From Ulota crispa (Eukaryota > Streptophyta > Bryopsida > Orthotrichales > Orthotrichaceae): 64,000 nt of DNA. The notes beneath the pieces were generated by a model. The model did no database searches. It saw nothing but the letters and a program-made list of their open reading frames with translations, and was not told the DNA's origin. Positions 4,695 through 56,583 of this stretch are shown here, one piece after another. A program made the translations under genes and the position numbers. Location: contig OY987246.1 of assembly GCA_963920765.1 (NCBI GenBank), forward strand, positions 15,062,868-15,126,867, in the 5' to 3' direction. Position 1 is the first letter of the stretch; the number at the start of each line of letters is the position of its first letter.

Positions 4695-4698
4695 TTAA

Positions 4699-4913
4699 CC
4701 CTTAAACGGCAGAAAGGCCCTTTGCTACCAATACAATACAGGGTATTTTTCTTGTATTTGGAATGAATCCACACCTCTACTACATTTGAGATCAACAAAG
4801 AAGTTGGAATATAGATAAATGCAGTTCTAGTGAGCTATTTGAGATCCCAAGTTAAAATTTCTTGTTGGTAGCAAATGCCAAATATACGGCAACATATCTA
4901 CTATGCTTATGGG
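4699..4913. mobile_element. TTAA-flanked MITE (CCCTTAAACGGC end), 215 bp
   Basis: The element is bounded by TTAA at 4695-4698 and 4914-4917. It starts CCCTTAAACGGCAGAAAGGC and ends TGCTTATGGG. Its interior matches the element at 49924-50157 over most of its length (shared CAATACAATAC, TTTTTCTTGTATTTGGA and CATTTGAGATCAACAAAGAA). It has no coding capacity. TTAA duplication plus CCC ends indicates piggyBac-type mobilisation. Confidence 0.75.
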
Positions 4914-4917
4914 TTAA

Positions 4918-6588
4918 ACAAAAAAATGGATACCATTGACAAAAATCCAAGCAAAAATCATGGATGTACCATGAGGTTGTTTAGTTATAAATCAATGTGC
5001 TTTAAATGAGTTGCACAAGCAAAATACAAGTGATTCGACTTCTAAATTTAATACCAATTGTTTTGTATGATAATAGAAATTTTCCTTGCAATAGAGGAGA
5101 TGTCCTTAAATAGTGTAGATGCTCTCATTTATGTGCACTAGAAATGCCTTGTTTTAACATAAAATCTACAAAAGCTATAAACAAGTTTGAGACATTATTA
5201 GAGTGATTTGCCTCAATTTTCTTCTAATTTTTTACTCTCTCAAATTGTTGGTTGATATTAATGTCACCTTTCAAAAAAATAGAATGTACAAATAAATAAA
5301 AAACTCATTCAAAACTTTGCTTGAATTTCCAATTTTTACAAATGCCAAAACTTTAATTCCAAATTTAAGAAGTTACCAAACAACACAACATGCAAATAAA
5401 TAAGGTGCAAGTGGATGTAGTATTGTCAGTAGTACAGTTGCTTGCTGGGAGAGCCATGAACGACGTTCCAGGTGTGATTTCATTCGAAGCAAATTAAAAC
5501 TTTGGAATTCTTCTTGGGAGAAAGTATCTGTCCTTTAGCCTCAAACTCCCCTGTGCAACTTCAGTTTGTTTCCTCTTCTGCTTTCTCAGGCTCTCATCAG
5601 TGAAAAACACGATATTCCCCAAACTGTATTTCACCTAAAACCTCTCAAGTCAACTTAAATGTTTAAGGAGGTCAACTTAAATGTTTAAGGAGGTTAACTT
5701 AAATGTTTAAAGAGGTTAACTTAAACATAATTAATCAGCTTTGAGTCCAAAATCTCAAAAATATTGTTATTTTGTGGAACAAATAGTAATAAAGAGCGTA
5801 TTTCTAAAAGATTCTCAGCTTTTTGAGTAATAGAGATAATATTGTTGGAAGATATATATCTCATTTCATTGGAAAACAATCAAGTGCACACCTAACAAAA
5901 AAGGGCTAGAATTCCCAAAATGTCTGTTTTTTCCCAACTGAATATCATGTTAAAAACAATTTTTTTACCAAAATCACAATAGCATGATAGAGTATTCAAG
6001 CAATACTCACACTTTTGTGCTACTCACATACAACAAGCACCGCCCCCATCACGAAACATGCCAACTACTTGAGTGTACGTGGGGTTCTCTTGTTTTCAAA
6101 GGGGTAGTAGGTGAGAAGGGCAACACACAGAAAGTTTGTCGTGGATTTGTGTTAATCCTTCTTCCCTATATCTATTTTCCCCGATCTCTTCGTGGTCATC
6201 ACTTCTTCCTTGTTCCTGCTCTAACTAAGTTAAGTTATGTTGATCAGCAAGGGTGCTCTGGAGCTCCATCATACAGCAATGCTGCAGCACTCATTAACGC
6301 CGCAATCCCGACCCATGCTGCGGCCCTATTTCCAGACCACGTCTGAGGACTTTGCGATGGTGAGGAGCTCCGAGTTGGCGGCAGCGGAGGTGGTCCTGGG
6401 AATAGTACCGCAACATGGAGTTGGGACACGACGCCCTTGCTTGCTAAATGCAACATTGCTGCACTTGGCTAGCTCCACCGCACCCACGATCTCGGGGAGA
6501 GGAGAGAATAAGTAACCTGGGTTCCGATCATCTATGAAATTTGTCTTGGTAGTGTGCATTAGGATGTATTTGCACCAAATCAGGTACT
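4918..6588. other. Gene-free stretch before the XRN pseudogene
   Basis: Apart from a 22-bp tandem repeat at 5649, nothing clear is seen up to about 5980. From 5984 base composition becomes richer in G and C and several short overlapping frames appear (5984-6346, 6237-6515). They match no family I recognise and may be decayed upstream sequence of the exoribonuclease pseudogene. The stretch 5445-5640 shares short blocks (CCATGAACG.CGTTCCAGGTGTGAT and TTTCACCTAAAACC) with 8660-8690 and 10070-10085. Confidence 0.45.
5649..5727. repeat. 22-bp tandem repeat, ~3.6 copies
   Basis: The unit GTCAACTTAAATGTTTAAGG plus AG repeats at 5649, 5671 and 5693 with a partial copy at 5715. The later copies change GTCAAC to GTTAAC. 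Confidence 0.85.
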
Positions 6589-10727: not shown

Positions 10728-10746
10728 AATATATATATAAATAAAT

Positions 10747-12005: not shown

Positions 12006-12757
12006 TTTCTTCTTAAAATTGATCCGTTTGTGATATCCTTCTCTAGTTTCAATTTTAGGCAAGGCTCCCCTTGGTGGCAAACAATTTCAATACATGCCTT
12101 CAATGAATCCGCTCAACAACAAACCACATGCCAAGCCAAAACAATAACTAACAAGCTCAATAATAGCCAATCCACCAACAATACAAGCAACAACTAGTTT
12201 GAAGTGCTTAGATATACAAACCTCTTGGTAGACCTGTGATGTTGCATAACCTCCACAAATACATATAAACACCTCTTTATGCACTTGTAACTTTTTATTC
12301 ATAGTAAAAATTTTAAAATTGCACAATTTTCTTAGGAATATGCACCACATATTTCATAATTATTTGACGTTTTTCATAAAACCATTACCTTCAAGTACCA
12401 AATGGTCCTCAAATGAATCTTGCCAACACTTTGGTAGACAACATCCTTTAGGGGTTAATGCACTATGAACAAAATCATATAGTTTTCTCAATTATATCAA
12501 CACGTCATCTGCATCCCATGTCACAACCAACACAAGCCAACCGAGACTCAAGCTCAAGAACAAGTGCAACTAACTAACTTGGGAGGGGGAGAAAGGGAGC
12601 TGCAAAAAAAAACCTATTGTTTTGACAAAGACCAGCTACAAATAGATCGATTGATCTGAACAAAATTCAGCTAATTTGCCTACCTAATACTCAATAATTC
12701 CGCGGTGCCCAAAATGGACAAAACTCACTCTTGCACCTGAACCTGAAGGACTTGAAC
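12006..12757. other. 3' flank of the syntaxin gene
   Basis: No gene was recognised. The portion nearest 12757 presumably holds the 3'UTR of the minus-strand syntaxin gene. No clear poly(A) signal was identified. Confidence 0.4.
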
Positions 12758-15860: not shown

Positions 15861-15893
15861 TTAACCCCTAAGCGCCCTACAGGCAATTATTTT
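15861..15893. mobile_element. Solo left end of a TTAA/CCCCTAAGC element
   Basis: TTAA (15861-15864) is followed by CCCCTAAGCGCCCTACAGGC, nearly identical to the left end of the element at 55471 (CCCCTAAGCGCCCCACAGGC). No matching right end is seen before the LTR retrotransposon, so this is a truncated copy. Confidence 0.55.
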
Positions 15894-17098
15894 GCCCCTC
15901 TGGATCTAAAATTTGGGAAATTAAAGGGGTTCTATAATATGTACTTCCTGGTAGGGGGTACTGGCAAACAAGGGTTTATTAGCATTCCTGGATGGGAGAG
16001 GGCGATGATGGTTTTTAGTGGTGTGTTGGGCATTGACTGGGTTGGAAGATAGAGGAAATGGCTGGTTTTGTGTTTTTTGCAAAGGGTTTCACTGGGAGGT
16101 AATTCAAGTCACCGGCGTGGGGCGGTTCTCGACAGTTTGGGGTCTATTCGAGTGCATGCCCCTGGTGAACAACCTGCCACGGTGTCATTCTCGCCTCGCT
16201 CACAATCTTCGACGGTTTGTGTCTCAGATTTTTTAGTGCAAATCCGTAAAGTGCATACCGTTTTCGGGAATTGGGGTACGTCCTTTGCTTGTGTTTGGGT
16301 GGGAGGACAAGGATTTAGGGTCATTTTCTATTGTGGCCGACTAGCTTTGCCTTTGTTGGTCTACTGCGTGCTCATTTTTTTCTCAAGTAGATGGAGCATT
16401 GTGTGCCTTAGAGATTCTAGAAATTGGTCCTTTGTATTCATCACGTGGAGTGCTCCCTTGGGCAATTGCGGTGCTGCAATTTCGGTACCATGGTTGACAA
16501 TTTGGAGAATATTGGCGGTTTGTGCAAAGGCGGCGACATGTTTGTACCGAGAGCAAAGGAGTAAGGGGCTTGAATGTTTTGCCCGCCTAGACGTTTCTCA
16601 AAGCCAACCCCGACAAAGTGGCACTGATTGAGGCGGTCTTGGAAGCTTGGGCGCTGGAGAAGCACAATGCAACCCCCCAGCAAGTGCAGATGTTGAAGCT
16701 TTGCTTGCAGGAGGAATTCCTTAAATAGCTTCGAGAGCCAGCAAGGAACCATCAAAAGCCACACCATCCGAGAGCTGATTCTTGGCGCTATTTGTTTCTG
16801 TGCCAATGTTTTCAAACATTGGATGTGCACCATCGCATCCCCGAAGGGGATCTAGACGGACTGCTGGTAGTTGTCAACACTTTTCTACGAGAGAGGTGGT
16901 GGCCATCTCTGACAAAAGCGGCATCCAAGACCTACATTGACGACGTCAGGGGAGGTGGTGGTGCAATCATAGGGTCCGCCCGGAAAGGCAACCATGTCCC
17001 ATTACGCAAGCAGGGAGTTCCCTACGCCAGTCACAGAGGCATCGCTCGACCGCGCATTGCTGGGGATCGGAGGCGTCCCAAACCCACTTCCAATGTAG
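15894..17098 (+). pseudogene. Decayed coding-like sequence, unidentified
   Basis: GC is higher than in the surroundings. Short protein-like stretches occur in changing frames: ANPDKVALIEAVLEAWALEK and QMLKLCLQEEFLK at about 16595-16727, then in a different frame QQGTIKSHTIRELILGAICF from about 16736. Stops and frame changes separate them. I cannot name the family. It may be the upstream part of the interrupted Arg/Gly-rich gene that follows, or an old transposon. Confidence 0.35.
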
Positions 17099-17459
17099 GA
17101 GGGAGCCCACCTTCTGCTTGATCAAGGCGCCATTCGAGGTTGCGACACAGGTAGGGGTCGCAGTGGACGAAGTGGCCAAGTAAGGGGGACTAGTCGACCG
17201 AGGGGGGCTGGTTGCGCGAGGGGTAGAGGGGCTGGTGGAGGAGTCCATGCTACAAGCAAGGGATTCACTAGTCCAATTACTAGCGCAACAATCCGAGGAG
17301 GGAGGAGTCGGGGTTTACCAACCACATCAACAGAGCAAGATTTTGACTTGAATGAACCGGCTCCACCAATTTTTGACTTGAATTTTGAGCAGCACACGGA
17401 TGGCAAGGGAGATGCAGGCAGTTTTGGACATGAATTAGGTCCAGCAACGGAGGATGCGG
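17099..17459 (+). pseudogene. Arg/Gly-rich reading frame, 5' part, split by the LTR retrotransposon
   Basis: The frame (codons starting at 17099) is open without a stop to 17459. It is rich in Arg, Gly and Ser (GRSGRSGQVRGTSRPRGAG, ARGRGAGGG) and then has an acidic tail with a repeated DLN motif: FDLNEPAPPIFDLNFEQ. DLNEPAP fits the DLNxxP form of the plant EAR repressor motif, although one short motif is weak evidence. The LTR retrotransposon begins right after codon GCG plus one G of this frame. Read across the element and one copy of the GCGG target duplication, the frame continues at 28037 and ends with TAG at 28189-28191. The upstream start is unclear. Confidence 0.5.
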
Positions 17460-19620
17460 TGTCCTGATGGACTTCCCTCCATCATGTAAATACTTGTTAT
17501 TTCTTTATATTTGTGTTGATTTCAATAAATCAACAGTTGAGGCAAAAGGGGTGGTCGTGGTGAGGACCACGGTTTGGTGACAACGCAGCGGCCATAGATT
17601 CCAATGCGCTGCGCCGTCTTGTCACATGCACAGCTCAGGGGGGTAGGTAGCGGGTTGGCTGGGCCAATTTCCTGCCTCACTAGCTGCCAAGCCGTGAGCC
17701 GCCATCACCGCTCGACGAGTTCGATGGGATTCGAACCCGGACCGGCGGGCGGCCAGAGACGACCGCTTTTCCAGCCAACCAAGTCCACGACTTGGCAACT
17801 GAAGACAAGCGTTTGACGCTATTATATGCTCGCAAGAGCACGTGGCCATTTTACGATGGTGTTTATTTTGTAATTTAATCATTTTCATATGTTTATCTAG
17901 AGATTTTGGAAGGCTCATATATTTTGCCTTTGTTTGAATAAAAATACTAAGGATTTAGAAGTCAATGGGAAAGGTGTGAAAGGAAAAGGGTTTTGGCATC
18001 TATGGTGGGGTTAGGATAAGGAGGAGCATGGGCTGATGTGCCCCACCTCCCTACCTTAGATAGGGTCGAAATTGTGGAGGAAAGATCCCTTAGTTGTTGG
18101 AAGTTAGTGTATGAGTGTTGGTGGGAAGAAAGGAAAAAAATCCCGAAACTTTGAGAGGAGATTTTTTTCTGTGTATACATGATTTTGAATTGAAATTTGA
18201 GGAGGTTGTTCCTTGTGTGATTACCTTTCCAAAATGAGTTTGCAAGTTTGATTTGGAGTTGTGATGCAAAAGTTATGAGTGTTTGAATTTTGGAGTCAAA
18301 AAGCCAAACTATGAAGAAAGGCTGAGACTTCGACAAGCCATAACTTATGATCTGTATATCATTTTGCAACAAGATTTGGAGAGAGTGTTTATCTTGTTAT
18401 TGGCTTTCTAGAAAGTCTTTAAACTTGAAGTTTGAAGCTTGGACGAGAAAGTTATGGAAGTGTGAAGGTTTGGAGGTGGCTGCCCTTTTGTTAGGAGAAA
18501 GCCGAGATTTTGAAGAGCTACAACTTTTGGACAGTATGAGATTTTCTTCTCAAAATTTTAGGAGTGATAGTTTGTTGTCATAGCTTTTCAAATTGTCTTT
18601 AATCATTTCATTTGGAGTTTTATTGAAGAAGTTATAGTGGGTAGAAGTTGCGGGTTTGGGTGCTCTCTAAAAAATTGAGACCCACACTTTGATTGACTAG
18701 AGCTTTCGGACAAAGTTTTGTTTTGAAGTGCAAATTTTATGGATTGAAGCCAGTGATATCATCTTTCTAAATTGATATCACGTTTCTATGGGTGATGTAT
18801 AGAACAAAAGTTATAGAGGTTTTTAGAGGCAGTGTTTAGTTTGTAAAGAGGAAGAAGAGCCTCTACTTTGAACTTGCATAACTTTTGGACAGTATCTTAG
18901 ATTGAGTTGAAATTTAGAGGGATGTTAGAAGGTTAGGAGAGCTTTTCAAATTGCTATTACACTTAGCATTTGAATCTTTGAGCCATCTGTGGCATTAGAT
19001 AGAAGGTTGCTGCCTTTTCTAGGACTTGTTATTTGTGATTTTCCCCATTGTTTTTATTAAAACATGAAGACTTGAAGACTTGAAGACATGAAGATTTGAA
19101 GATCTGAAGATATGAAGATTTCAAGAGGAATGTTTTGGGTTTATTTTTTATGTATGTGTGGGATGTGGCTTTGTTATTCCTAGCCGGTTTTGGAGGCTCG
19201 TTTGTCAATTCATTTCCATTCTGTTTTGTAAACCTTGTTGCGGGCAGTTTGGGTTAAACCAAACTTAACCCCATTTATTGTCGTGGTGACGAAGTGGGAT
19301 TGATCACCCACATGGTCGAGACTTGCTCTGTTCTCACGATCTGGAGTTTTGGCCAGCAGATCGTGAATTTGATTTTAGGATCCCGTCATACGGACGGCAG
19401 CTCGTGTCTGCTGTCCCGATCTACCCGTCCCGTATCCAGTGGGCTCTTATCCCTACCTTGACCCTTATACCCTTAGAGCCAGCCACAGGATAGGCCAACG
19501 GAAGACTGAAGACTAAAGATTTGAAGAGAAGATCAAGATTGACAACGTTTTCAGTCGGCAACGCACGATCGCAGCAAGACACCCTGCGTGTTCCCAAGGC
19601 GCGCTCCTCTCAACACGACA
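17460..19620 (+). repeat. 5' LTR, 2161 bp
   Basis: Direct copy of 25872-28032 (offset 8412), starting TGTCCTGATGG and ending CAACACGACA. It contains an antisense tRNA-like segment (17700-17800), a GAAGACTTGAAGA-type 9-bp repeat at about 19065-19125, and many GTTATGGAAG or AGTTATAGAG-like low-complexity blocks. No promoter element could be fixed by eye. Confidence 0.97.
17705..17800 (-). other. tRNA-like segment (pol III A and B boxes) inside the 5' LTR, antisense
   Basis: On the minus strand, TGGCTGGAAAAGCGG (17777-17763, A-box-like) is followed 24 bases later by GGGTTCGAATCCC (17738-17726), an excellent B box in a T-arm-like context. The region between can form a short anticodon-like stem (GCGG with CCGC). 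The T-stem is imperfect and there is no full cloverleaf, so it is not a functional tRNA gene. It could be the head of a tRNA-derived SINE captured by the LTR. Confidence 0.6.
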
Positions 19621-19640
19621 TTTGGTGCTTCCACTGAGAG
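19621..19640 (+). other. Candidate primer binding site
   Basis: Directly after the 5' LTR lies TTTGGTGCTTCCACTGAGAG, containing TGG near its start as expected for pairing with a tRNA 3' CCA end. I could not assign the tRNA. Confidence 0.5.
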
Positions 19641-19670
19641 AGCTTTGGGGCGATTATTGCGTTTGTTGAT

Positions 19671-22259
19671 ATGGGAGACAGTAACGAGGCTTTCGGCGCC
19701 AATACCGGTGGTGCCAGTGGAGCTGATTTGCCTCGAGAGGTTCCAAGCGCCACTACCAGAGGTGTTGGTGGACCTCAGATGCCAATGGAGGATCTCCTAG
19801 GAGCATTGGCCATATTCATGGAGCAACATCGAGCCAACCAGGGTGGTCAAGTAGCCACCGAGGCATTGAAAGCTGTTGTTGTGAAGACTGGTAGATTTGA
19901 CGGCAAGAACATAACGAAGTTTTTGCGAGCCTATGTTTGCGAGATGGAGGTGCATCAAGTTGATGAAAATTGAATGATGGCTACCTTCGACATGGCAGTT
20001 GTGCCTGACATTCGTGACCGTGTGCGAGAGATCCGCGAAGGAGTTCACACTTGGATTGCCTTTGCTGAGCGTCTACGTGACGAGTACTTTGACGAGGACA
20101 CGGAAAGGATGACCAGAAGATCTTTTCTAGAATGGGTGGAGCAGCGGCCAGGAGACAACATGGGTGCTCATGAGCTGCTGAAGGCCTTTGAGAAGAAGTT
20201 TTCTCAGTTACCCATGATTGAGAGACGCCTCCTCAACACCAGGAAGGCAGAGCTTTTCCTTCAAGCAGCTGATGCTGCATTGGAGGATAGACTTCTTCTA
20301 CTTCTTGGAGATCGTACCACAGAAGGTGGTTTTACCACCGATTGGAGAAGGGTGGAAGAGACCGTGACCTTGTTGGCCAAACAACAACGTGTGAGGTCAA
20401 GAGGATTTGGAGCAGGAGTAGACACTAATCCAATTTTAGTTCCAAAAAGTCCCAAAGTATCTTTTGCACCATCATCATCAACAACTCCAGGGTCTATCTT
20501 GAAGACCACCAAAACCAACGAAGGTAATGCTCTTGAAGAACTCATCAAGAGTTTTAAAGAGCTGAAGGTGGAGTTTATTGAGTTGAGGAAGTCTCAGGCA
20601 TCAGGCTCTTCTTCATCGTCGCAGCCATCTGATGGAGGGAGGACACTCCCTTGGAGATGTATATGGTGTGACAAGAGCGAACAAGATGGCAAGCATCGCC
20701 TTCGAGACTGTACAGAGTGCGACGAGGCCTTGAAAGATGGCATCGTTGAATTTATTGACGGCAAGCTTCATGATTCATCCACAAAGACACCATTGAAGAT
20801 CAACTTTGGCAGAGGAGGGATGAAGAAACTTATGGAGGGAAAGATGGGACGATCTAGTTCCATACATGTACGTGAAGCTGATTCATACCACATTGAAGTG
20901 GAGCAGCACTCAATTGGAGCTTCACCCACTCAGAGAGCCACACTAATGAAACGAGGAGCTCAAGCCATCAGAAATGTAACTGGATGGGAAGACCCGGTTG
21001 ATGCAAGCAGCATCAAAGCATTTTTGGAGAGAGATCAAGCCAATGTTGATCACTATGAGGCTTCAGTTGAAGAGAAGCGTGGGAGAGTTGAAGCCGAAGA
21101 TGGTGAAGAGCCTTCATCAAAGAAGAGGGCTCAAGCGCAGAAAGATTCTGCAAATGAGTCGAGGCGCAGAGTACAAACGCGCTCGAAGACACAAAGTCCA
21201 AGCTTTGTGCACCCTGAGGATGATTTGCTTCCTGATAGAGACTGGGGGCAGTCTAGCGGCAGCGGAAGAGGCCATGAGAAAGAAGACTCTAGCAAGCCAA
21301 AGGGGAAGAGCCCTGCTTATAAGCTCCAGTCCGACATTGAGACCTCCATTGATATGAAGGGAATATTGGAAGAGAGGATCTTGGATGCCAAGATCGAGTT
21401 CACATTGAGGGAAGCACTTGGCATAGCCAAGAAAGACTTCCATGAGCTGATCATCGACATCATCAAGCGAAAGAGACAGATGACAGCAGAGACTGTAATG
21501 GTGAGTGCTTTGGACACTCACATGACCATCGATGAAGAGATTGAGATTGGCGAAGTTTTTGCCATGATGGGAGACCATGAGGCTCACTGCAGTGAAATTA
21601 CACTCACGGAGATAACAAGAAAAGAGCCAGAGAGGGTGCAGCGCTCAAATGGAAAGGCTAATGAGGCAAAAGTTCAGACAATTGATGATGAAGTATCAAA
21701 AGTTGAAGCTAAGATTTTTGAGTTCAGTTGTGATCATTCTACTGATAGACCTCATGATGTCGAGACTGAGTTTCAGCAACCGTATTGGGCTAGAGCCACC
21801 ACTGAAACAAGAGTGAAGCTTGGTGGAATGGATGAATCTGTTTTGGCCCTTGTAGATCATGGTTCAGAGATCAACATCATATCTCGCAAGACCTATGAGA
21901 AGGGCAAATGGCCAATTGACACAGAACATGGCTGGGTGATGAGAGCAGCTAACAATGGGCGCAGTTCATTGTATGGAGCTTGCCCTTCAGTGCCAGCAAA
22001 GATTGGAGATGTGGAGGTTGAGCAGAATTTCTTTGTTCAAAATACTGGGGCATATCCAGTGCTTCTGGGCCAACCTTTCATCACTGCTTCACGCATGGAA
22101 ACCAAAGTGTTGGATGATGGATCTCACTATGCTCGAATTCGAAGTATAGATGGGAAGAAGTCAGTGCAGTTCTTAACTGTGAGAGCTGACAATGAAAGGC
22201 ATCGAATGCAACTCAGAGAAGTATCTTTGCCGACTTCTCTGAACTTTCCGGATTTCTAG
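19671..22259 (+). CDS. gag-pr: Gag-protease reading frame with one internal TGA
   Basis: ATG at 19671 opens 100 codons that end at TGA (19971-19973); the same frame continues at once for 761 codons to TAG at 22257-22259. The part after the TGA contains the Gag capsid-like region (RRSFLEWVEQRP..LEDRLLLLL, residues about 40-130 of that part). A nucleocapsid-like knuckle of spacing CX2CX8HX4C starts at Cys229 (CIWCDKSEQDGKHRLRDC). A Glu/Lys/Ser-rich linker and coiled-coil-like stretch follow. The retropepsin active site VDHGSEINII has its Asp at 628 (nucleotides 21855-21857), with His replacing the usual Ser/Thr of D-S/T-G, and LLGQPFI downstream as the matching strand. The TGA is one transition from CGA (Arg), so a point mutation is simplest; programmed readthrough is possible. 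Protease is in frame with Gag and separate from Pol. Confidence 0.88.
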
Positions 22260-25200
22260 AGGGCACACGTGGGATGTGGGGATCCACGGGTGCCAAGGAT
22301 ATCAATACTAGAGAATTCCCCAATATACATACTGCTATCAAGTGTGGATTTTTGAGCGTGACAAAGTGTGGATTTGCGAGTTTCATGGATGCCAAAGATT
22401 TGGACCATGTACATAGAAGATTTATCAAAAAGAAGGAGAAAAACCTAAAAAAAATGAAGGTTCTTGAAGAAGATGAGAGCATTACTGGTGTGTATGAAGA
22501 AAGTGGCATGCCAGATGATATCTTGCATACTCTGCAAGATTTGAAGACAAATGAGGATGCAGAGCCGACTACTCATTGTCTTATTGATGTCCATACAGCT
22601 GCAATGCATCATGAGATTTACACAGCAATGGCAAAGCTGTGTTCTTCTAATATCGATGAATATAGACCTGAAGCTGCAGTACATACCAAGTACAAGACTG
22701 TGAACAAGAAGGTGAAGCCAGTGGCTACTCAGCTACCATTTGACACTGATGATCACATCAAACAAGCTGAAAAAGAGCCAAGTTTGAGAGAGTCAAGGAG
22801 AATTGGACACAAATTCACCGAAGAGACTCTAGCTAACCTCAAGATTGGAGGAGATGGTTTCCTGACTAAGCCAGAGAAAAAGAAATTTCAAGACATGCTT
22901 TTGATGCATGGAAAGGCTTTTGCTTCTTCTTCAGATGAGATTGGGTGTGTGCAGCCAAGTGTTGTAGCACCAATGGTCATATTCACAGTACCACATATAC
23001 CATGGGATTTGAAGCCTATTCCAGTGCCTAGAGCTCTACTGCCAAAATTAGTGGAGTTGCTCAAAGAAAAGACGCGCATGGGCATACTAGAGCCTTCAAT
23101 GGCTCCATATTCAAACCGTTGGTTTACTGTGCCAAAGAAGTTAGGAGCATTGAGGTTCATCCAAGATATGCAGCCTGCAAACAAAGTTACAATCAGAAAC
23201 AAAGGATCAGGCCCTGTTGTTGACGAAGTGGCGGAGGCATTTGCTGGACATGCAATCTATTCCATTGGAGATCTATACTCTGGTTATGATCAATTCCAAC
23301 TTGCTGCTCAAAGCAGGGATTTGACGACCATGAAGACTCCTCTTGGATTGGTGCGTATGTGCACATTGCCTCAAGGCGCTACTAATTCAGTGGCACATAT
23401 GCAAAGCGCTATGAATCAAATTCTAAGAGACTTTGTGCCAGAGAAAACCATACCTTTTGTGGATGATATCCCAATAAAAGGATGCGAGGAGAATCAAAAA
23501 GACTTGACAGTTCAGAGTGATGGTTGCCGAGCCTTTGTAAGCAACCATATCCATGACGTGGCTCAAATCTTGGGCAGACTTGAGGAGGTGAATTTGACTC
23601 TATCCATTGATAAGTCAAAGTTTGGGGTGAATGAAATTCTGGTGGTTGGGCACTTATGTGGCTCTTATGGAAGAAAACCTAATCCTGAAAAGGTTGATGC
23701 TATTGGAAGAATGAAAGCCTGTAGCAATATCACCGAAGTAAGGAGATTTCTTGGAGCTTGTGTCTTCTACCACATATGGATTCCCCATTTTGCTCATATA
23801 TCAGAGCCTCTCTACAAATTATTGCGTAAGAGGACCAAATTCATTTGGGAAAATGAGCAAAACTTGGCTATGGAAGAGTTGAAGAGGATTTTAGAGTCGC
23901 CACCAGTTCTCAAGCAAGTAAACTATGATTGCAAGAGGCCGGTGATCGTGACTGTTGACACAAGTCCAATTGCCATAGGTTGGGCTATTGGACAAGATGA
24001 TGAGGAAGGCAAAAGATTTGCTATTCGATTTGGAGCAAGGATTTTGACAGAGCGTCAGAGAGCATATCCACAAGTGAAAAGAGAACTATGGGGTGCTCTT
24101 ACAGCTCTGAAGGCGGACAGAAACTACCTTATTGGAGCAGAGGTGGTACTGGAGACTGATTGCTTACCTTTGCTGGGGATGATAGCAAATTGTTCTTCAC
24201 CAGACATTGCAATGCTTCGATGGATCGCCTACATCAAATCTATGAATCCGGTTCTAGTACACATTGAAGGCAAAAAAAATTCTGTTGCCGATATGTTGTC
24301 TAGAGCAAGGTATTCTAATGAAGATGAGATGATGGGCTACGAAGATGTCGAAGATTTATTGCATGGAGGCTATGTGGTGACGATAGATGCTGAGAGCTCA
24401 TCGATCGATGCTTTGCCATTCAAAGCTGAGCTTTATGAAGAAAAATTGAGAGACATTGGGCTATATTTAAGCACAATGAAGCTGCAAGAAGGATGGACAG
24501 ACAAAACATTCAAAGACATCAGGCATCAATCCTATAGATATCTTTTGAGAGAAGGATTTCTATGGAAGAGGGGAAAAAGAGCTGATGAAGTACCATTGAG
24601 AGTGGTGGGGGACTCTAAGACCAAAGTTGAAGTTCTCAAGGAGTTCCATGATACTCTTTGGGCAGGTCACAGAGGTGTATGGGCCACTTATACAAAAATC
24701 AAGGAGAGGTACTGGTGGAAAGGACTTTACAAAGACGTTGAAGAGTTTGTAGTTTCTTGTGTGGTGTGTCAACTGCAATCCAAGGTGCGCCACAGAGATG
24801 AATTACATCCTACTTACCCTCTAGCGATCCATTTTCAGTGGATGATAGATTTGGTAGCCATGCCAAATGCTATGTGGGGAATGAAGTACCTTGTTTTGGC
24901 ACGAGAGGAGCTCTCAAACTTCGTTGAGGGCAGAGCCTTGAGGACTAAGGCTACCGAAAATGTATGCCGATTTATACTCGAAGACATCTTCAGTCGTTAT
25001 GGCAGCATTGGCCGAATGAGAGCTGACAGAGGAGAACTAAATGCCACTGAGGCCAAAGAGTTCTTCAAACGTTATGGTGTGCAGTTGAAGCTGACGACAG
25101 CTTACAACCCTGAGGCTAATGGCAAAATTGAGAGAGGGCATCCTCCGATCATTCATGCTTTGGTTAAAGCTTGTAAAGGCAAACCAAATATGTGGCCAAA

Positions 25201-25861: not shown

Positions 25862-25871
25862 AGAGGGTGCA

Positions 25872-28032: not shown

Positions 28033-28191
28033 GCGGCACACTACAAAACTCGAGGACGAAGATGCGTACGGGGAGATGGTAGGGGTTGCCCAGGCTCACG
28101 CAGCAGAGGTTGTGCCAAGTGGGGACAGTGTGGCACAAGGCGGCTGCGTGGGCAACCAAGGGGATTGGGTCAAAGTAGAGGAGTACCTTAG
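28033..28191 (+). pseudogene. Arg/Gly-rich reading frame, 3' part, downstream of the LTR retrotransposon
   Basis: Starting with the second GCGG copy, the frame reads AHYKTRGRRCVRGDGRGC, then SRSRGCAKWGQCGTRRLRG and ends GLGQSRGVP-TAG at 28189-28191. Composition (Arg, Gly, Cys) matches the part that stops at 17459, and the phase is preserved when the retrotransposon and one GCGG are removed. It was probably the C-terminus of the same protein. Confidence 0.5.
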
Positions 28192-34660: not shown

Positions 34661-36495
34661 AAGTTCATACCTAGGTGAAGTGGGCCTTGAAGGTCACCCG
34701 CCCTGCTCGTCTATGACAAGGACTTCTGGCTATGGTGACATGCTTTAGGTAAAGTGGCTTGAAACTTTCATAATGACATTGGTATTCCTTGTTTTTTCTT
34801 AGTTCATGTTGGTAGCATTCAGAGTGGATGCCTGCCTTCTATACCGTTCAGTTGTTCCTAGCGTGTTTGCTGCACTTTTTTCTAGGTTATTGAACGGAGA
34901 TGTGTGACTGCCGTTATTCCAAACGTGCTTGTCATCTGAACCGGTGTAGTGGCACCCTTGTAACATGAACCCAAAGGTGATGCGGAGCAAGACCTAGCGG
35001 AAAAATGCCGACAAAGTAATATCCACATTCAAAGTTGCTGTCTGTGATTTTTTTTGTTGAATGAAACCTTGGGCCACACAGAGATATTAGAAGCGGAGTT
35101 GTTTAGGTTTGTGGAAGTCAACAAGTTACCGTAAATTACTTCAAGGAAGTGGTTAGTTCATCGCGCAATAACAAGTTGGTCCGGTAAGCGGCTTCTTGGG
35201 AAAGGCGGGTCTATTGAATTCAGTGACAGTGTGCATGCAACTAATTTTCTTGGAAGGAGGGAACAAGGAAGCTGTCTGCGTAGTTGGATCGGATTTGGCT
35301 ATTCACTTGGTGTTGTCTCTCCGGGACAAGGGTGACCTCACGCCGACCAAGAATTTTTGGCAAATGCAGAACAAAGTGCCGATAGGCAAGCATCCACAAG
35401 CTCGGCATTAGGGGGGTCCACGACAACAACAAAGCTCCATCGGATATGTGAAGAACTCTAGAATTGCATCCTGGATTTGGCCAGGAGACCAAGCTGACCA
35501 TGGGTTGAAACCGCAGATACAGTGAGGTGACATTGTTGTGCGAGGGGGATGGGGTGTTTTTGGTAGGTTGCAAGGCCATCAGGGCCGATGTGGCTATGAA
35601 TCAGAAGAGAGGGATTCAATTCAAGTCACCTTCAAATTGAAATGGGACATGAATTAGCAAAGACATGAGGTTTTGCAGTAGAGACATCTATTTGATCTGG
35701 TCGATCTGGTAAGGGTCAAGCAAGTAAGAAGCGTCCCACTTACCTCAATGTATTACATGTAAGCGTTTCCATGAACAAAAACCCTTTTGTCTCTTATTTT
35801 GTGATTGTCAAGAAGGTGCACTATAATCCCTGGAAATCAACCCTAAAGAAACAAAACCCAGCAGTCAAGCCGTCCACCTCAAGAGCGCAATGCTTTCCAA
35901 AACTACAATAGCAGAAGTAACTAGGACGCGGAAGGGGCACAAAAGCGTGCAAAGCCAAAGCTTGCTTCAGCTGAAGCAAGTGGTTGAAACCGCCTCTAGC
36001 AGGCTTGATGTGGTAGGCGCTTCCGTGGCTGTACAAGCTAGGAGACTGTCTAGGTGAGGTCAAAACCAGCTGTGCATTCCAGCAATTTTCTCTGCACACT
36101 GACACTGTCAATTTCAAGAGCCCACACAAAGGGTTTGCACTTTGCAAGAATTCATGAAAATATGTAGGTACAATGGTACATACTCTACGCACAACTTAGC
36201 AAAATTTTAGGACTTGAAGATACGTATTCCCCCATAATTTAGGACCATGAAGTTGAACAAGCCCCCTAAATTCATCCAAACCACAAAAGTCAACTCACAC
36301 ATGACCACTATAAAATCCTAACCCACACGGTGAAACACATTGAAATTTGAACACGGCAGGTGAACCCTAGTTATTTGCCCATTCTAGCGGTCAATCAAGG
36401 CCGATGTGATTTTTGAAAAAGGGACATCCATTTCTGAGAGCAAAGGTCAAAATGACGCCTGAATCCTAAAATATCTGAGGGCACTCAAGGATTAA
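34661..36495. other. Gene-free stretch
   Basis: No supportable gene, RNA or mobile-element end. Frames at 35196-35579 and 35821-36192 lack recognisable domains. Confidence 0.4.
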
Positions 36496-37002
36496 CCTTT
36501 AAAGGACCAAGGCCTTTTTTTTGTGAAAATCACTCAAAATTTTCACTTTTGGAGGAATGAGTATAAAAGTAGAAAAAAAAAGCTTTTTTTGGAAATCCAA
36601 CCATAAGATCTTGCCCTAGACTATGGGAGGTAATTGTGAGAAAAAAATTAGCTCATTCTAAATGTAAAGGAGTGAGATATTTACATTTGAAGTGAAAACA
36701 AAAGTTTTTTTACCTGTTGCCCAAAATTTTAAAAGCCTTTGACCGCTCCTATATCAAAAAAGTTACTCTACGCAAAGTTGAGGTTTATTTTTTCCATATA
36801 GAAGACCAAGTTAGGTATATGTGGAAGAATTTTTAAATTAATTGGAGGTGTGAATCATAGTTTGTAAAATGTTGCAATGCTATAAGGCCATAGAATTTGC
36901 ATATACATTAGGCAAAATTGTAAGTTTTATGTAAAATTCAAAAATTTGAATTACATGAATTAGAGCAGTCAAAACATAGGAATTGTAGTCTAGTACAATT
37001 TG

Positions 37003-37050
<48 letters not shown>

Positions 37051-37758
37051 ACATATACAAAAAACAAATTCAAAGATGGCTCAAAAGAAAAACATTATTA
37101 TTTTGCAAAGGGGCAGATGGAATAGAGGTTCCAGAGGCCCATGACACGAGCCCCATCCACCCCATCCTCCCACCCTTGGGACCTAGGGTTGTCTTCTAGC
37201 AATTCCCTTGTGTTCCCAAGTTCTCATCCGAGTGCTCTTGAGGTTCCTTCATGTTCTCCAAGTTCTCCTCCAATCCTGAAGTTCCCTTCTTCTCCATGTG
37301 CTCCCTTTTTGCCCTTCGGCAATTGCTCGCATGGACCTTGCTCCCAATCGTGACTGAAAGGGCTCTGTCAACTCAACGTGTCACCTCAAGAGCTTCCACC
37401 CCCTTCCACCCTAGCTGGCCCTTGCAGCTTGTGAGGCCGGGTTTTGACACCTCCTCCCTTTAATTTTGCTGCCTAAGTAACTGGTATCTTTGCCCTCTCC
37501 AAGCTGCCCCTCTTCCTAGTCAACTCTCTCATACAAAGGAGAGGTACTGACCAGGCTGCCTCTCCTCCCCCATTTTTGAAAATTTATGCATAACTTTTTT
37601 GTTTTATGTCAAAATGAAGAAAAAATTAGATGCCCATGTAGCTTTTTGAATTCCCTACCTTCAATAAAAGTTTCAAAAAATCATGAAAACCAGTTTAGCT
37701 ATAGGTACATGCCCAAAATCCATTTGTCCCTCAAGGGGACAGTTGGTCCTTTAGGGGG
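36496..37758. mobile_element. TTAA-flanked element, ~1263 bp
   Basis: TTAA at 36492-36495 and 37759-37762. It starts CCTTTAAAGGACCAAGGCC and ends TTGGTCCTTTAGGGGG, sharing the 11-bp inverted core TAAAGGACCAA with one base of length difference at the tip. It contains a 47-base A run and a GC-rich block at 37120-37560 with no identifiable protein. Confidence 0.6.
37003..37049. repeat. Poly(A) run, 47 bases
   Basis: Uninterrupted A tract inside the TTAA element. It may mark a retroposed insertion whose 3' end lies here, or a replication-slippage tract; its length is uncertain in any assembly. Confidence 0.95.
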
Positions 37759-37860
37759 TTAAAAGTGATACATGGCGAGAGTTAAAAGTGATTATATCCA
37801 CTTTTAATCATTTTATCCATTTTTTGTGTGTTTACAAACCTATTTGAGTAAAAACAAACA

Positions 37861-38019: not shown

Positions 38020-38345
38020 GATACAGTATTTGGAAACAATGTGACAACACCTCTTGCCCAATCACGCAATGATTTGTATTGCTAACCAACATGGAGAGCA
38101 TGACTAGGTAGAAATCTAGCACAAGATTGTTTGGCATATGTCATCTTTGACTTAAAACAAACTACAAAAAACTGGAGAACGATAGACTAGAGAATAGTTT
38201 GTGAAAATGATCTTCAAAAAGCTGGACAATAGTAGAATGGAGAATGGTTTGGAATGCAGCAAAGAACCTCAGCCACAAGTCACAAATGATATATTGATCA
38301 TATCCTTCCATGGCTTCATTGACTTCCCTCCCAAGTGGCCCTTAA

Positions 38346-39258
38346 CCCCTAAAGGACCAAGGAGCCCACTTTGGGCTTTACGAGAACTTGGGGAGGCTCT
38401 ATTGACTTCATAATTTGGAAGTTTTTCATAAATTTTTTAGGATAGGTGCTACTCATCATAATGTACATGTGAAGCTTTATTTCATGTCTTTTTGGTAAGT
38501 AATGCAAAATTTATAAGGTTTTTTCAATTTCAATGTCAAACCGGGCAGCAAAAATTATATTCTAATTTTTTATGTTTGTATTTCTAGAATTGTATAGATT
38601 GATACCTACTCAAAAAAAATTGAATCGCTCAATTCCATATAATGAGATAAGAGTTAAAAGGACTTTTATTTTGCAGGCAATGAAGGTAAGAAGAGGGTAG
38701 AAAAAACATATGAAGTTATCTTTTACTCTCAATTTTGAAAATGTTCAAATGAAAATGAAAATTAAAAGTTACTTATTGTGTGTTAGAGCATTCTCACCAT
38801 TGGGATTAACAATTTTCAAATTCTTCCAAAACTTATTAGCATATTAGTTATATCTTTCATTCATCAATACATTTTGCTTTACAATTTTTGTGAAAATGAA
38901 TCCAAATTTTATTTTGGTCAAATTTGTTTATGTATGCTTTCAACCCATTTTTCAACATATTGCCAAAATTGCACAAGAAATACAACATACGGGTTTTTCT
39001 CTAAAAAGTTTGAAAAACAAAACTTCACCTTCTGGACAAACTAAAACAACCTACATTTTGAAATTTAGGCACATTGATCTTGCAATTGGTGGGGATGTTC
39101 ATTTTGAAATTTTGGGACAATGTACTTGTGCAAGTCAACCAAAGGATCCTATGGTTGGATTTGTTAAAAAGTAAATTTCAATGAAGATTTTGACCTCGCT
39201 TTAGGGGCTAGTATTTTGAAGCAGTTTTGGGCCTCTAAACACAAAAGAATTTTAGGGG
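38346..39258. mobile_element. TTAA-flanked element, 913 bp (copy 1 of a pair)
   Basis: TTAA at 38342-38345 and 39259-39262. Ends are CCCCTAAAGGACCAAGGAGC and AATTTTAGGGG. It is alignable along its whole length to 52914-53821, at roughly 85 percent by eye. A 94-codon frame (38890-39174, contains KIAQEIQHTGFSLKSLKNKT) has a counterpart in the other copy, shorter by a stop. It shows no transposase domain. Confidence 0.85.
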
Positions 39259-39262
39259 TTAA

Positions 39263-39505
39263 CCCCTGAGCGCCCAGCATAAGTTCACTCAAATTCAAAC
39301 CCTTTGGAACTCATTCCAATCAAACTATCACCTAAAAGAGATCCACAAAAACTAACCGTACCGATTGGTAGTGAACATAGGCCCGGAGCTCCAAGGAAAA
39401 GAACGCATCCTTTCATTGTACCATTGAAAAGATTATTATAACGATCAAACACAAAAAAATTTCAAAACTGAGAGGCCATATTTTAGCCCCTTGGGCGCTT
39501 AGGGA
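39263..39505. mobile_element. TTAA-flanked MITE, 243 bp, abutting the previous element
   Basis: It begins CCCCTGAGCGCCCAG directly after the TTAA at 39259-39262 and ends TTGGGCGCTTAGGGA before TTAA at 39506-39509. The inverted ends agree at about 12 of 14 positions. The left TTAA is shared with the right end of the 913-bp element. Confidence 0.75.
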
Positions 39506-39509
39506 TTAA

Positions 39510-40569: not shown

Positions 40570-40571
40570 TA

Positions 40572-41731: not shown

Positions 41732-41735
41732 TTAA

Positions 41736-42473
41736 CCCCTAAAAGTTCAAGTGGTGTTTTTTAGCAACTAAGGAATTTTGGGCAGTTCACTACAAATGGG
41801 ATTTTCACATTTTTTCTTCAAAATTTTCACACATGATGTACCCAAGGAGTAGCTTTAAGATCCCACAATTTTCATAACGTTTGACAACATGAGTCAAAAG
41901 TTATTGCATGACATGTTGTTTTCTTTGTTTGGCGGGCAGTCAAGGCAAATCAAAAAACTTATTTAAAATTTACATTTTTGGGAATTTTTTTTGGAATTGG
42001 TTTTTTAGATTTATACATATATATGAGAAGTTTTGAATCATTCAATTCTAATTTGTGAGATGAAACTTAAGAGAGATTTTAGTTTGTGGGTAGGCATGGT
42101 TTTAGAGAGACTCCATACCTACCCACAAACTAAAATTTCTCATAACTTTCATCTCACAAATCAAAATTGAATGGTTTAAAGCTTCTCACATATATATAAA
42201 TTTAAAGAACCAATTCCCAAAAAAAAATCCAAAAAATGTAAATTTTAAATAAGTTTTTTGATCTGCCCGGACTGCCCACTAAATAAAAAAAATAACATAT
42301 CATGCAATAACTTTTTATTCATGTCACCAAAAGTTATGAAAATTGTGGGACCTTAAAGCTACTCCTTGGGTACATCATGTGTGAAAATTTCAAAGAAAAA
42401 AGTGAATCCCATTTGTAATGAGCTGCCCAAAATCGCTATGTTGCCAAAAAAACACTGCTTGGGCCTTTACGGG
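41736..42473. mobile_element. TTAA-flanked foldback element, 738 bp
   Basis: TTAA at 41732-41735 and 42474-42477. Nearly the whole element is one palindrome. The left end CCCCTAAAAGTTCAAGTGGT pairs with the right end (complement CCCGTAAAGGCCCAAGCAGT), TTTTGGGCAG with CTGCCCAAAA, CAAATGGGATT with AATCCCATTTG, and the centre TACCCACAAACTAAAAT with its complement near 42080-42135. Arms are about 360 bp with a loop of some 20-30 bases. Confidence 0.9.
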
Positions 42474-42477
42474 TTAA

Positions 42478-44180: not shown

Positions 44181-44184
44181 TTAA

Positions 44185-44952
44185 CCCCTAAGCGTCCAAA
44201 GAGCCCAATATGGCCAAAGGAGGTGCTTGGAGGTGTGAAAGTATACAAAAGAGGCATTTTTAGCTCTTTTTTTGGTCTACCACTCAAGTCCAAATGGAGT
44301 TGCTAGTTCAATAAAAAAATTTGATTAGCTTGTTGTTCCTTGAAGCTCCTGCTTTGCTCTAGATTCTACATGGAATTTGGAGAATATTCTATTTTTTCTA
44401 CAATTAGGAGAAGATTGTCTTTGGGCAAACAAAAGAGACTGCTTAGAGAGCAGATGGGATGGGTGCTCTCATATCTTGTATTGTACAAAGGAGAAATTTG
44501 ATGATGTGTCATTTTTTTTTCTTCATTTGGGCATAGTTTTTATAGCTCTAAAGTAAGGAGCTAGTGGAATCTAGCTACTTTGAATGACCATACCTTTTGG
44601 AGTTTTTTTTCCATTTGTGGAGTTTTTTTTTCCATCAAGTATAGCAAGACACAATCTCATGGAATTGGGTATTAGGTAAATCTTTTCTTTGAGAAAATAT
44701 TACATGAAAGTCCAAAATCCATATTTTGAACCGTTGCCCAAATTGGAAAACATGAGATTCTCAACAATGGGGATTTTGCATATTTACTTGGATTTGAAAT
44801 CAAATTGGTGTAAAACACTTAATTTATACTTGGGTATAGAATGACCAATTTGGATTATGTGATTACTTGTTCAACTTTCCAAAAACTTGGGAAAAGTGTT
44901 GAAAGTTTCATGTTGGAATTATGCTGAATTTTCTTAGCAAGATGCTTAGGGG
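44185..44952. mobile_element. TTAA-flanked element, 768 bp
   Basis: TTAA at 44181-44184 and 44953-44956. Left end CCCCTAAGCGTCCAAAG, right end AAGATGCTTAGGGG; the first nine bases of the ends are perfectly inverted (CCCCTAAGC). No protein is encoded. Confidence 0.8.
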
Positions 44953-44956
44953 TTAA

Positions 44957-49617: not shown

Positions 49618-49621
49618 TTAA

Positions 49622-49845
49622 TTCCTGGATGGCCCGAAAGCCCTTTGCGGTCGTATGTATAGTCATGTGTACATACATATTTGAGTTGCTTTGAGAGTTT
49701 TCCAAAAAAATTTATGCACCGACCATCATACAACCCTTCAATATGTATGGTTATAACACTTAATTTCCAACTGATTCAAACTCCTGAATATTAATTACGA
49801 CCGTGTTTGGTACCGTAACTCCAGAGCCCAAGGGCCCTTTAGGGG
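49622..49845. mobile_element. Diverged TTAA-flanked MITE, ~224 bp
   Basis: The right end is clear: GGGCCCTTTAGGGG then TTAA (49846-49849). The left end at TTAA 49618-49621 is weaker (TTCCTGGATGGCCCGAAAGC), but the following GCCCTTTGCGG resembles the same position in the 4699 and 49924 elements. Confidence 0.5.
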
Positions 49846-49923
49846 TTAACACTCCTCCTTGCTCGACAATATAATATGATAATTTATGTAATCTTGTAAG
49901 ATATACGGTTGTTATCTCATTAA

Positions 49924-50157
49924 CCCCTAAACGACAAGGCAACCCTTTGCGACCAATACAATACGGTGTATTTTTCTTGTATTTGGAGTGCATCCACACC
50001 TTTATTACATTTGAGATCAACAAAGAAGTTAGAATATAGATCAATGCTATTCTAGTGCGATAGTCAAGATCCTGAATTAAAACTTTTTGTTGGTAGCAAA
50101 TGCCAGTTATACAGTAGCGTACATGGTACATATTATAGTAGCCTTGTCCTTTAAGGG
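49924..50157. mobile_element. TTAA-flanked MITE, 234 bp
   Basis: TTAA at 49920-49923 and 50158-50161. Terminal repeats CCCCTAAACGACAAGGC and GCCTTGTCCTTTAAGGG match at 15 of 17 positions. The interior is homologous to the element at 4699-4913. Confidence 0.88.
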
Positions 50158-50161
50158 TTAA

Positions 50162-52909: not shown

Positions 52910-52913
52910 TTAA

Positions 52914-53821
52914 CCCCTAAAGGTCCAAGGAACCCACTTTGGGCTTTATGAGAACTCAGGCAGGCTCTATTGATTTCAAAATTTGGAAACTTTTCATGAA
53001 ACTTTTAGGATGGATGCTAGTCATCATAATTTACATGTGAAGCTTTATTTCATATCATTTTGATACGTAATAAAAAAGTTAGAAGCTTTTTTAAATTTCA
53101 ATGTCAAACTGGTAGCAAAAAATGTATTCTAAATTTTTTATTTTTTTATTTATAAAAATTTATAGATTGATACCTACTCAAAAAAACTAAATCACTCAAT
53201 TCCAAATAATGAGGTAATAGTTAAAAAGAGTTTTATTTTGCAAATAGTGAAGGTAGGAAGAGGGTAGAAATAACATATAAAGTTATCTTTAACGCTCAAT
53301 TTTGAAAATTTTCAAATGAAAATGAAAACTAAAGTTATTTATTGTCCGTTAGAGCATTCTCACCATTGGGATTAACAATTTTCAAATTCTTCCAAAACTT
53401 ATTAGCATATTAGTTATATCTTTCATTCATCAATACCTTTCACTTTACATCTTTTGTAAAATGAATCCAAATTTTTTTGGTTAGATTTTTTTATATATGC
53501 TTTCAACCCATTTTTCAACATATTGCCAAAATTGCACAAGAAATACAACATACAAGTTTTTCTCTAAAAAGTTTGAAAAACAAAACTTTGCCTTCTAGAA
53601 GGACTAGAAAAGTCTACATTTTGAAATTTAGGCACATTGATCTTGCAATTGGTGGGGATGTTCATTTTGAAATTTTGGGACAATATACTTGTGCAAGTTG
53701 ACCAAAGGATATTATGGTTGGATTTGTTAAAAAGTAAGTTTCAATGAAGATTTTGACCTTGCTTTGAGGACTAGTATTTTGAAGCAGTTTTGGGCCTCAA
53801 AATACAAAAGAATTTTAGGGG
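52914..53821. mobile_element. TTAA-flanked element, 908 bp (copy 2 of a pair)
   Basis: TTAA at 52910-52913 and 53822-53825. Ends CCCCTAAAGGTCCAAGGAAC and AATTTTAGGGG. Homologous over its length to 38346-39258. The internal frame (53477-53701) is 74 codons and ends earlier, at a TGA after CAS. Confidence 0.85.
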
Positions 53822-53825
53822 TTAA

Positions 53826-54672: not shown

Positions 54673-54797
54673 GTTCCCTATCCCCGTGCCCCCTATCCTC
54701 ATGCCCCCTATCTCCGTGCCCCCTATCTCCGTGCCCCCTATCCTCATGCCCCCTATCTCCGTGCCCCCTATCCTCATGCCCCCTATCTCCGTGCCCC
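54673..54797. repeat. 15-bp minisatellite, ~8 units
   Basis: Units CCCCCTATCTCCGTG and CCCCCTATCCTCATG alternate in the order b-a-a-b-a-b-a after a diverged first unit. As 15 is a multiple of three, the plus strand stays open and would encode a five-residue APY(L/P)(R/H) repeat, but no gene context supports translation. Its CCCCCT-rich strand stands out sharply from the AT-rich surroundings. Confidence 0.95.
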
Positions 54798-55466
54798 CAA
54801 ACTTGATTTTATTCCAATTATAAATTTAGTAAAACTTGTACTCTACTCTATTATACTTTTCATCCAATATGGGATTGCTTTACTCTATTTTGCTTTTCAT
54901 TCAATATGAGATTCTTTTAAGTATATAAGATAAGTTTGAAAAATACATAGAAAAATAATTGTGAGTTCCAATTGCTAGTAAATAGAAGAATAGAACATAG
55001 GTTTAAACACAGACATGATTGTGTGTTTACAAAATTGATGAAATCTGGTTTTCTAAAAAAGAATTTTTGCACAATTGTGTCCTATATTTTTAAAATTCAT
55101 GCTTAAACCCTACCTTGCAATCAAGCATATAACTTTTTTTTAGACACTCTTCTTAACACAAAACTAAACCAATTAAAGGAATGTTTCTTAAAAAATTGAG
55201 CCCAAAATACATAATTATGAACCAAAAAAAAACCTTCGACCATAATTGTGTATACGAAAAAATCCTTCAAACGTTTGTTCAAAGCGTAACATACTTATCT
55301 ACAATCTTAGACTCAATGTTCTAAATGATATGCTAAAATTTGTGCTGGAGAACAAAATATGACACTAAAAACAAATGTTCCCTTCAACCACCCCCTTAAA
55401 TTACGTGAAGAAGCTAACACCTACTAAAATCACATCAAGAAAATATGTCAAAAATCATTTTATCCA
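54798..55466. other. Gene-free stretch
   Basis: AT-rich; nothing recognised. Confidence 0.45.
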
Positions 55467-55470
55467 TTAA

Positions 55471-56579
55471 CCCCTAAGCGCCCCACAGGCAATATAAGGG
55501 GTGCTGAGAATGCTCAAACCCAGTTGAGTTGATCAAGGTCCGGGAAGAACCTACTGCTAGTGTAAGATTAGCCAACTAAGATTGAGATTTGGTTGGTTCA
55601 AATGCAAGTCGTTAGGTTGTAAAACTGAAAACAATGAAAATAAGAGAGAAATTTACAGATTAATAAAAAAATACGAAGGAAAATGATCTGCTCTTTTTCA
55701 AGATGGGTAGGAAATTGACCAAAAGAAAATACAAGAAACTAGATATTAGAGGATCTTCAAAGGATATGTCCAGATTTCAATTGACAAAGTCAAGGATAGC
55801 TAATCATCAATGGTAGTATAAGTTCAATATTTCAAGGCCAGCCACCTGAGCCTAGAGTTGCAAAGGCTCTTGACCTATTCCTGCCTTTAAACCACTAGGT
55901 GATTTCATTTTAGCCTATTCATGATACCATTTGCAAATAAGTGCCACCAAGTAATCTCTCTATCTCTCTCTTCTAGCAAGTAGGATTTTTTTAAATTGCA
56001 AATGTGAGCTTTGTACTTTAGTAAAGCTAAGTATCTTGTCCTCAACTAATGAGGAGTTTCTAGGTTCAACTTTTGCTATAGACATTACATTGTTTATTGA
56101 TTTTATATATGTATATGTCTTTGTTATTTTTGAAATCTTTTTGAGGATTTTGGCTAATTTAAGTTAAATATAGAAGGAAATTTAGTTGATTCATTTCCTA
56201 CATGAAAGAAAAATCAACTGATCCGCACATAAGATAAAAGGAAATTTAGTTGCTTAAAATTCGGTACCAAAAGAAATTGACCGCTTTCCTTGAGTGCAAA
56301 AAGGCAAAAACCAATCTCAAACAATGTTCAGCCAAACATACTCTTGAGTAACCAGCTTTCAGCTGAAATTTTTGAAATATTTCCCGAACCCTAGAGTTGA
56401 CTGCTATAAACTTTTGGATTGTAAGGTTAGTCATTCCAAAATTTGTTCTATTTGATGCGGATCCTACCTCTTTCCATTTTCCAGCGGTGAGATTGCCCTG
56501 ATTCTCTTTCTCGGGAAGCAACGCCACTTCATCTAGACAACCTTCAAAAATCCCTCGTTTTGTGATGGGCGCTCAGGGG
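55471..56579. mobile_element. TTAA-flanked element, 1109 bp
   Basis: TTAA at 55467-55470 and 56580-56583. Ends CCCCTAAGCGCCCCACAGGC and GATGGGCGCTCAGGGG; CCCCTAAGCGCCC pairs with CCCCTGAGCGCCC at 12 of 13 bases. A minus-strand frame of 93 codons (56246-56527) has no recognisable domain. Confidence 0.88.
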
Positions 56580-56583
56580 TTAA

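Follow-up and report, generated by a model that had tools for sequence, protein, structure and literature searches.

The window analysed here is a stretch of 64,000 nucleotides (C5:15062868-15126867, in an assembly of 274.8 Mb and 157 contigs) in which short elements bounded by TTAA and beginning with CCCCTAA or a variant of it occur repeatedly, and the question it raises is which transposase superfamily gave rise to them and on what scale. We consider it very likely that the elements are non-autonomous members of the piggyBac superfamily, that is MITEs together with longer derivatives, their transposase having come in trans from elements whose ends are related. The same assignment had been made in an earlier note from the sequence alone and is upheld here by the TTAA that precedes most ends, by the single TTAA-like site in the empty copies of one insertion, by the position of the element boundaries at TTAA and by a transposase relic.

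Elements of the window and their abundance

The earlier note had listed nine complete elements and a diverged tenth, and direct reading finds TTAA immediately outside both ends of all ten (Table 1). Our end search found 19 of these 20 ends again, the exception being the left end of the 49618 element. The description of the ends as starting CCC(C)TAA does not hold throughout, exceptions being among others the 4695 element (CCCTTAA / CCCATAA), the 36492 element (CCTTTAA / CCCCCTAA, with one extra C), the 39259 element (CCCCTGA / TCCCTAA) and the diverged left end just mentioned. The interiors had been called largely unrelated, and two pairs depart from this: 38342-39262 and 52910-53825 share 89% identity over their full length, and 4695-4917 is 85% identical across 195 bp to 49920-50112, within the 49920-50161 element. 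A further isolated end, at 12458 on the - strand, was absent from the list; roughly 100 bp of the adjoining internal sequence align at 80% with one end of a 249-bp element of a sampled locus (L015:6011-6259).

Table 1. Features of the window bearing on the TTAA-bounded elements (window coordinates)
Position	Strand	Feature	Remarks
4695..4917	.	MITE, 223 bp including both TTAA	TTAA on each side; family of 49920-50161
12360..12458	-	Isolated element end	Partner lost or diverged
15861..36495	+	Probable transposase-bearing piggyBac element relic	~20.6 kb, ~10.6 kb of that nested LTR retrotransposon
17460..28032	+	Ty3/Gypsy-type LTR retrotransposon in relic	LTRs 17460-19620 and 25872-28032; GCGG next to each outer end
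32735..34657	+	piggyBac transposase relic	One frame, 5 in-frame stops (4 TAG, 1 TAA)
36492..37762	.	MITE, 1271 bp, AGGACCAA-type ends	TTAA 36492-36495 common to relic
38342..39262	.	MITE, 921 bp	Family of 52910-53825
39259..39509	.	MITE, 251 bp, GCGCCC-type ends	TTAA 39259-39262 common to 38342-39262 element
41732..42477	.	Fold-back MITE, 746 bp	Inverted arms; nearly all inverted repeat
44181..44956	.	MITE, 776 bp, GCG-type left end	
49618..49849	.	Diverged MITE, 232 bp	Right end canonical, left end TTCCTGG
49920..50161	.	MITE, 242 bp	Family of 4695-4917
52910..53825	.	MITE, 916 bp	Family of 38342-39262
55467..56583	.	MITE, 1117 bp, GCGCCC-type ends	Left 27 bp near-identical to relic end 15861

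As MITEs should be, the elements of the window are short (223-1271 bp) and without a transposase, and several of their families are multicopy with exact, fixed boundaries. The 921-bp family is matched over its complete length at four places, 38342-39262 aligning end to end at 88-89% with 52910-53825, L010:1427-2345 and L008:1501-2422, and these matches stop at the TTAA. The 4695-4917 element aligns with pieces of L027, L022, L019, L015, L011 and L025, both terminal parts of 36492-37762 are matched in L027, L010, L001, L018, L025 and L006, and 49618-49849 has relatives in L021, L026, L005 and L020. The self-complementary match of 41732-42477 spans its whole length, and the element has relatives in L015, L022 and L020; 44181-44956 has none among the sampled loci. 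Copies of the 921-bp family diverge by 11-12% and those of the 223/242-bp family by 10-26%, values that do not point to very recent movement in either.

A genome-wide count of ends gave 34,662 exact occurrences of TTAACCCCTAA in the 274.8-Mb assembly (17,299 forward and 17,363 reverse), against 231 (115 and 116) for the backwards-read control pattern. Closer counts were made in a sample of 264 kb that combines the window with 20 separate 10-kb stretches of contig C1, spaced along its length; a wider sample also has eight pattern-selected loci, likewise on C1. TTAA followed by CCCCTAA occurs 43 times in the 264 kb, and the remaining 104 permutations of this heptamer at most twice each. The window was itself chosen for the finding, and the 20 C1 stretches (200 kb) were counted apart: they contain 31 exact ends, 61 with at most one mismatch and a single occurrence of the reversed control with one mismatch, and four of the 20 are without any end. 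Scaling the exact genome-wide count by 61/31 gives about 68,000 ends, which is an arithmetic extrapolation. Paired ends 120-1600 bp apart make up 7.3% of the 200-kb sample (22 pairs), a rough share that excludes unpaired ends and in which two pairs appear to be fortuitous and two wrongly joined; in the window they make up 10.1% (9 pairs).

The interiors of the 39 sampled pairs fall into 23 clusters, a figure that is too high because the rule splits partly related elements and because some pairs are chance or mis-paired. L015:1662-1842 and L019:1188-1806 are likely chance pairs, kept in the cluster, boundary and end-resemblance counts, and L011:4862-5952 and L022:5733-6632, which probably join the ends of different elements, were kept in the counts as well. 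Shared TTAA sites number four among the 80 ends in 264 kb, plus the one at 36492. With 76 of 1,502 TTAA sites being element ends, about two shared sites would be expected for some 40 insertions, and a preference for the TTAA of another element, which we considered, does not emerge as a clear excess. At L015:6011-8102 three TTAA-bounded stretches stand head to tail with a single TTAA common to neighbours, an arrangement that recalls the tandem arrays of coral CMITEs.

The window holds other repeats besides. Two long fold-back elements (2980-3865 and 59707-60645) with TACAGT/TACAAT-type ends are a class distinct from the TTAA family; they have no direct mutual match at E 1e-8, and both match pieces of L004, L010, L015 and L022. 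A palindromic element of 130 bp (11876-12005) with ends CACTACAAGAAAACC has one relative, L027:7137-7258, and we take its ends to be those of CACTA-superfamily MITEs. Between TTAA elements lies a tandem array (54629-54818) of about ten copies of a 15-bp unit (CCCCCTATCTCCGTG-like). Among the PDB matches of the syntaxin encoded at 12758-13321 are syntaxin-1A and yeast Sso; the protein presumably resembles the plant SYP1 proteins. On this resemblance and on the earlier note the genome is probably that of a plant, a point on which the PDB matches are not decisive.

Ends, boundaries and empty sites

The 80 ends give the consensus CCCCTAA[A/G][G/C]G[A/C/T]CCAAG. The initial CCC is present at 97% at each of positions 1-3, position 4 is C in 76% and T in 20%, position 5 is T in 99%, position 8 is A in 72%, and conservation fades after about position 17; the ends were found by CCCCTAA with one mismatch, so that positions 1-7 are biased and those from 8 onward are unbiased. 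Beyond this search motif the two ends of the same element are alike at 5.7 of 10 positions as compared with 4.4 in shuffles, and none of 2000 shuffles of the 39 pairs was as high. Many ends read CCCCT and deviate slightly from the CC[C/T]T that the available text of PMC2872659 describes for the piggyBac superfamily; in these ends CCCT sits one base in from the terminus.

When the ends were searched without requiring TTAA, TTAA still preceded 38 of 47, and T stood at position -4 in 45 of 47. The earlier note had made its claim depend on whether the ends coincide with copy boundaries in alignments and on whether related empty sites carry TTAA once or twice. In alignments around 33 of the 39 elements, 134 of 290 alignment ends near boundaries lie exactly at the TTAA (offset 0) and 24 lie one base outside, while 31 run at least 40 bp past the boundary; these alignments are reciprocal and the ends are not independent. 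The 50 joined-flank queries (49 candidate pairs and the relic described below) returned clear paralogous empty sites for one element only, L022:633-1552, which is inserted in a repeat of which seven copies are empty. TTAA stands twice in the filled copy, whereas the empty ones have a single site (TTAA in three, TCAA in three and TTAG in one) and none has a second; the alignment of filled and empty copies shows four duplicated bases and no other gap at the site. Both checks thus come out in favour of the earlier note's claim, the second on this one element.

The repeat that hosted this comparison is a dispersed repeat of about 320 bp at 40255-40571 in the window, with seven other sampled copies at 83-92%, one of which is split by the L022 element; the window copy (40315-40571) is one of the seven empty ones. 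Joined-flank matches of L001 and L015 were rejected as empty sites as they fall on the element's own right end, and an L020 match that lies 560 bp farther along its own locus was likewise not counted.

A transposase relic and the possible source of mobility

The best evidence, which the earlier note overlooked, lies in the window itself: the relic of a piggyBac transposase. Its frame, read through the stops, matches PF13843 (E 2.7e-62, profile positions 3-349 of 349) and the structures of piggyBac (6x67, E 2.1e-26) and piggyBat (9c0f, E 1.3e-21), and the unbroken piece 33494-33976 matches PF13843 (E 3.4e-28) and 6x67 (E 4.4e-18) on its own. Three aspartates lie in register, in the alignment, with D268, D346 and D447, given as the catalytic triad of the piggyBac transposase in the available text of PMC7351741; read through its stops, the relic is thus a DDE_Tnp_1_7-family transposase with the catalytic aspartates. 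The part from about 33990 to 34280 looks frame-shifted. An NCBIfam search of the relic gave no match, and a single-sequence structure prediction of the unbroken piece had a mean pLDDT of 38.4 and was not used.

The end at 15861, which had been described as a solo end, is probably paired with a decayed - strand end at 36495 (TCCTTGAGTGCCC), and the two would bound one relic element, the pairing being drawn from one copy. The 36495 end agrees with the 13-bp GCGCCC-type reference end at 15861 at 9 of 13 positions. Only 15 of the 654 TTAA sides in the window score at least 9, all of them at listed ends, at 15861 or at 36492-36495, and no other TTAA side between 15861 and 36495 does so. At its right end the relic abuts the next element directly, and its left 27 bp (15861-15887) are identical at 26 of 27 positions to the left end of 55467-56583. 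Beyond these 27 bp none of the 39 sampled pairs matches the relic (E up to 1e-3), and for none of them is an origin from it by simple deletion shown. In the window and the sampled loci, tblastn (E up to 1) found no second copy of the transposase and no intact transposase was seen.

The retrotransposon nested in the relic has LTRs of 2.16 kb that are 99.86% identical in a 2171-bp alignment, which extends about 10 bp beyond the LTR start, and is therefore a younger event than the piggyBac relic. It has RT, RNase H and integrase-type domains, the rve match falling below Pfam's cut-off, and besides a long pol frame there is another, upstream, that matches DUF4100. Subtracting this insertion leaves a relic of about 10 kb, a large size for piggyBac; captured host genes were considered and rejected, nine frames from the remainder having no Pfam match at E 0.1.

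The ends could in principle be read in two other ways. T-TA-A is symmetric about TA, so that a single filled TTAA site is readable as the TA duplication of Tc1/mariner-type MITEs with ends ACCCCTAA..., the TA standing in TTAA by chance. In such Stowaway elements, however, the base before TA should vary, whereas it is nearly always T in our ends even when this was not required, and among the selected window frames scanned the transposase found between such ends is that of piggyBac; we regard a Tc1/mariner origin as extremely improbable. A 3-bp TAA/TTA duplication, used by plant Tourist MITEs according to the available text of PMC10004981, would make the elements PIF/Harbinger (Tourist-like) MITEs, but with inverted ends TTA and TAA on the two sides are not direct repeats, and it is TTAA that stands as a direct repeat on both sides of the listed elements. 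All four bases are constrained, the comparison of filled and empty copies shows four duplicated bases and not three, and the transposase is not a PIF/Harbinger one, which leaves this origin with hardly any probability.

On the piggyBac assignment, a piggyBac-type DDD transposase would recognise an end of about 16 bp (CCCCTAA[A/G][G/C]G-CCAAG), excise the element by way of TTAA hairpins and reinsert it into another TTAA, each copy thus being TTAA-flanked and an empty site retaining one TTAA. Excision with TTAA hairpins and insertion into TTAA are known for piggyBac (PMC7351741, in the part available), and by analogy the same hairpin chemistry may apply at these ends. The transposase would have come in trans from elements with related ends, the broken relic would be what is left of one of them, and the MITEs would retain only what the transposase must bind. 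We infer that the relic's transposase lineage moved these MITEs; an intact source presumably existed, or exists, elsewhere in the genome. It may instead be that the MITEs are of piggyBac type and the relic belongs to another piggyBac lineage, the transposase that amplified most of them being elsewhere or lost. The unmatched MITE interiors, the G that the relic has at position 8 where most ends have A and the lack of another transposase copy in the window and sampled loci point that way, whereas the near-identical 27-bp end shared with 55467-56583 and a 13-bp end of the same type as in the other GCGCCC elements argue for a common lineage; we consider such a separate lineage a serious possibility, though a rather doubtful one. 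Our broader reading is that piggyBac is a leading MITE-producing superfamily in this probably plant genome, with tens of thousands of TTAA elements of many different interiors amounting to about 7% of the DNA and moved by one transposase lineage tolerant of variable ends, some of it possibly still intact. It is put forward tentatively, its chances being a little short of even.

Comparison with known systems

The earlier note also held that such elements are rarely described as a dominant class in green plants. The superfamily is less foreign to plants than this implies: a 2015 survey counts piggyBac with the superfamilies present in every group it covered, among them the land plants (PMC4438587, in the text available), and an account of angiosperm MITEs counts it as one of seven superfamilies, naming it once, in a list, in the portion at hand (PMC10004981). 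The plant literature searched, as far as its text was available, yielded no report of piggyBac as a leading MITE class. For the fern Ceratopteris, the accessible part of PMC6890710 gives piggyBac 1,230 copies and 0.00%. Among the flowering plants and the one fern listed in these excerpts, piggyBac is entered as absent, as marginal or by name only. MITEs of piggyBac type are a known kind, and abundance on this scale would be out of the ordinary for a plant. Should the host be a land plant, a superfamily best known from animals would have given rise to a considerable part of its genome, and this genome would offer native plant ends, perhaps with a native transposase, for study and a setting in which to test how one transposase mobilises many families whose common sequence amounts to only about 16 bp.

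The angiosperm piggyBac MITEs of PMC10004981 (same portion) are alike in superfamily and in being non-autonomous, and differ from the present case with its 34,662 exact ends. With piggyBac of Trichoplusia ni (PDB 6x67/6x68; PMC7351741, part available) the elements share the TTAA target and its duplication, the CCC terminus, PF13843 and the aligned aspartates; they differ in that the ends here continue CTAA[AG][GC]G-CC and the transposase is broken by five stops. The size of the relic without its LTR element likewise contrasts with the approximately 2,472 bp given for piggyBac in an excerpt of PMC10813416. In general, piggyBac elements are described as duplicating TTAA and as having terminal inverted repeats of 12-19 bp whose terminal motif is CC[C/T]T (PMC2872659, in the passages available). 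The same passages report the CMITE and AmiPB elements of Acropora corals, where TTAA-flanked MITEs with CCC ends of 13-16 bp likewise occur beside piggyBac-like transposons, a MITE family has the ends of the transposon and little of its interior, and tandem arrays are found. The CMITEs keep a conserved interior, whereas the interiors of the elements described here fall into many groups.
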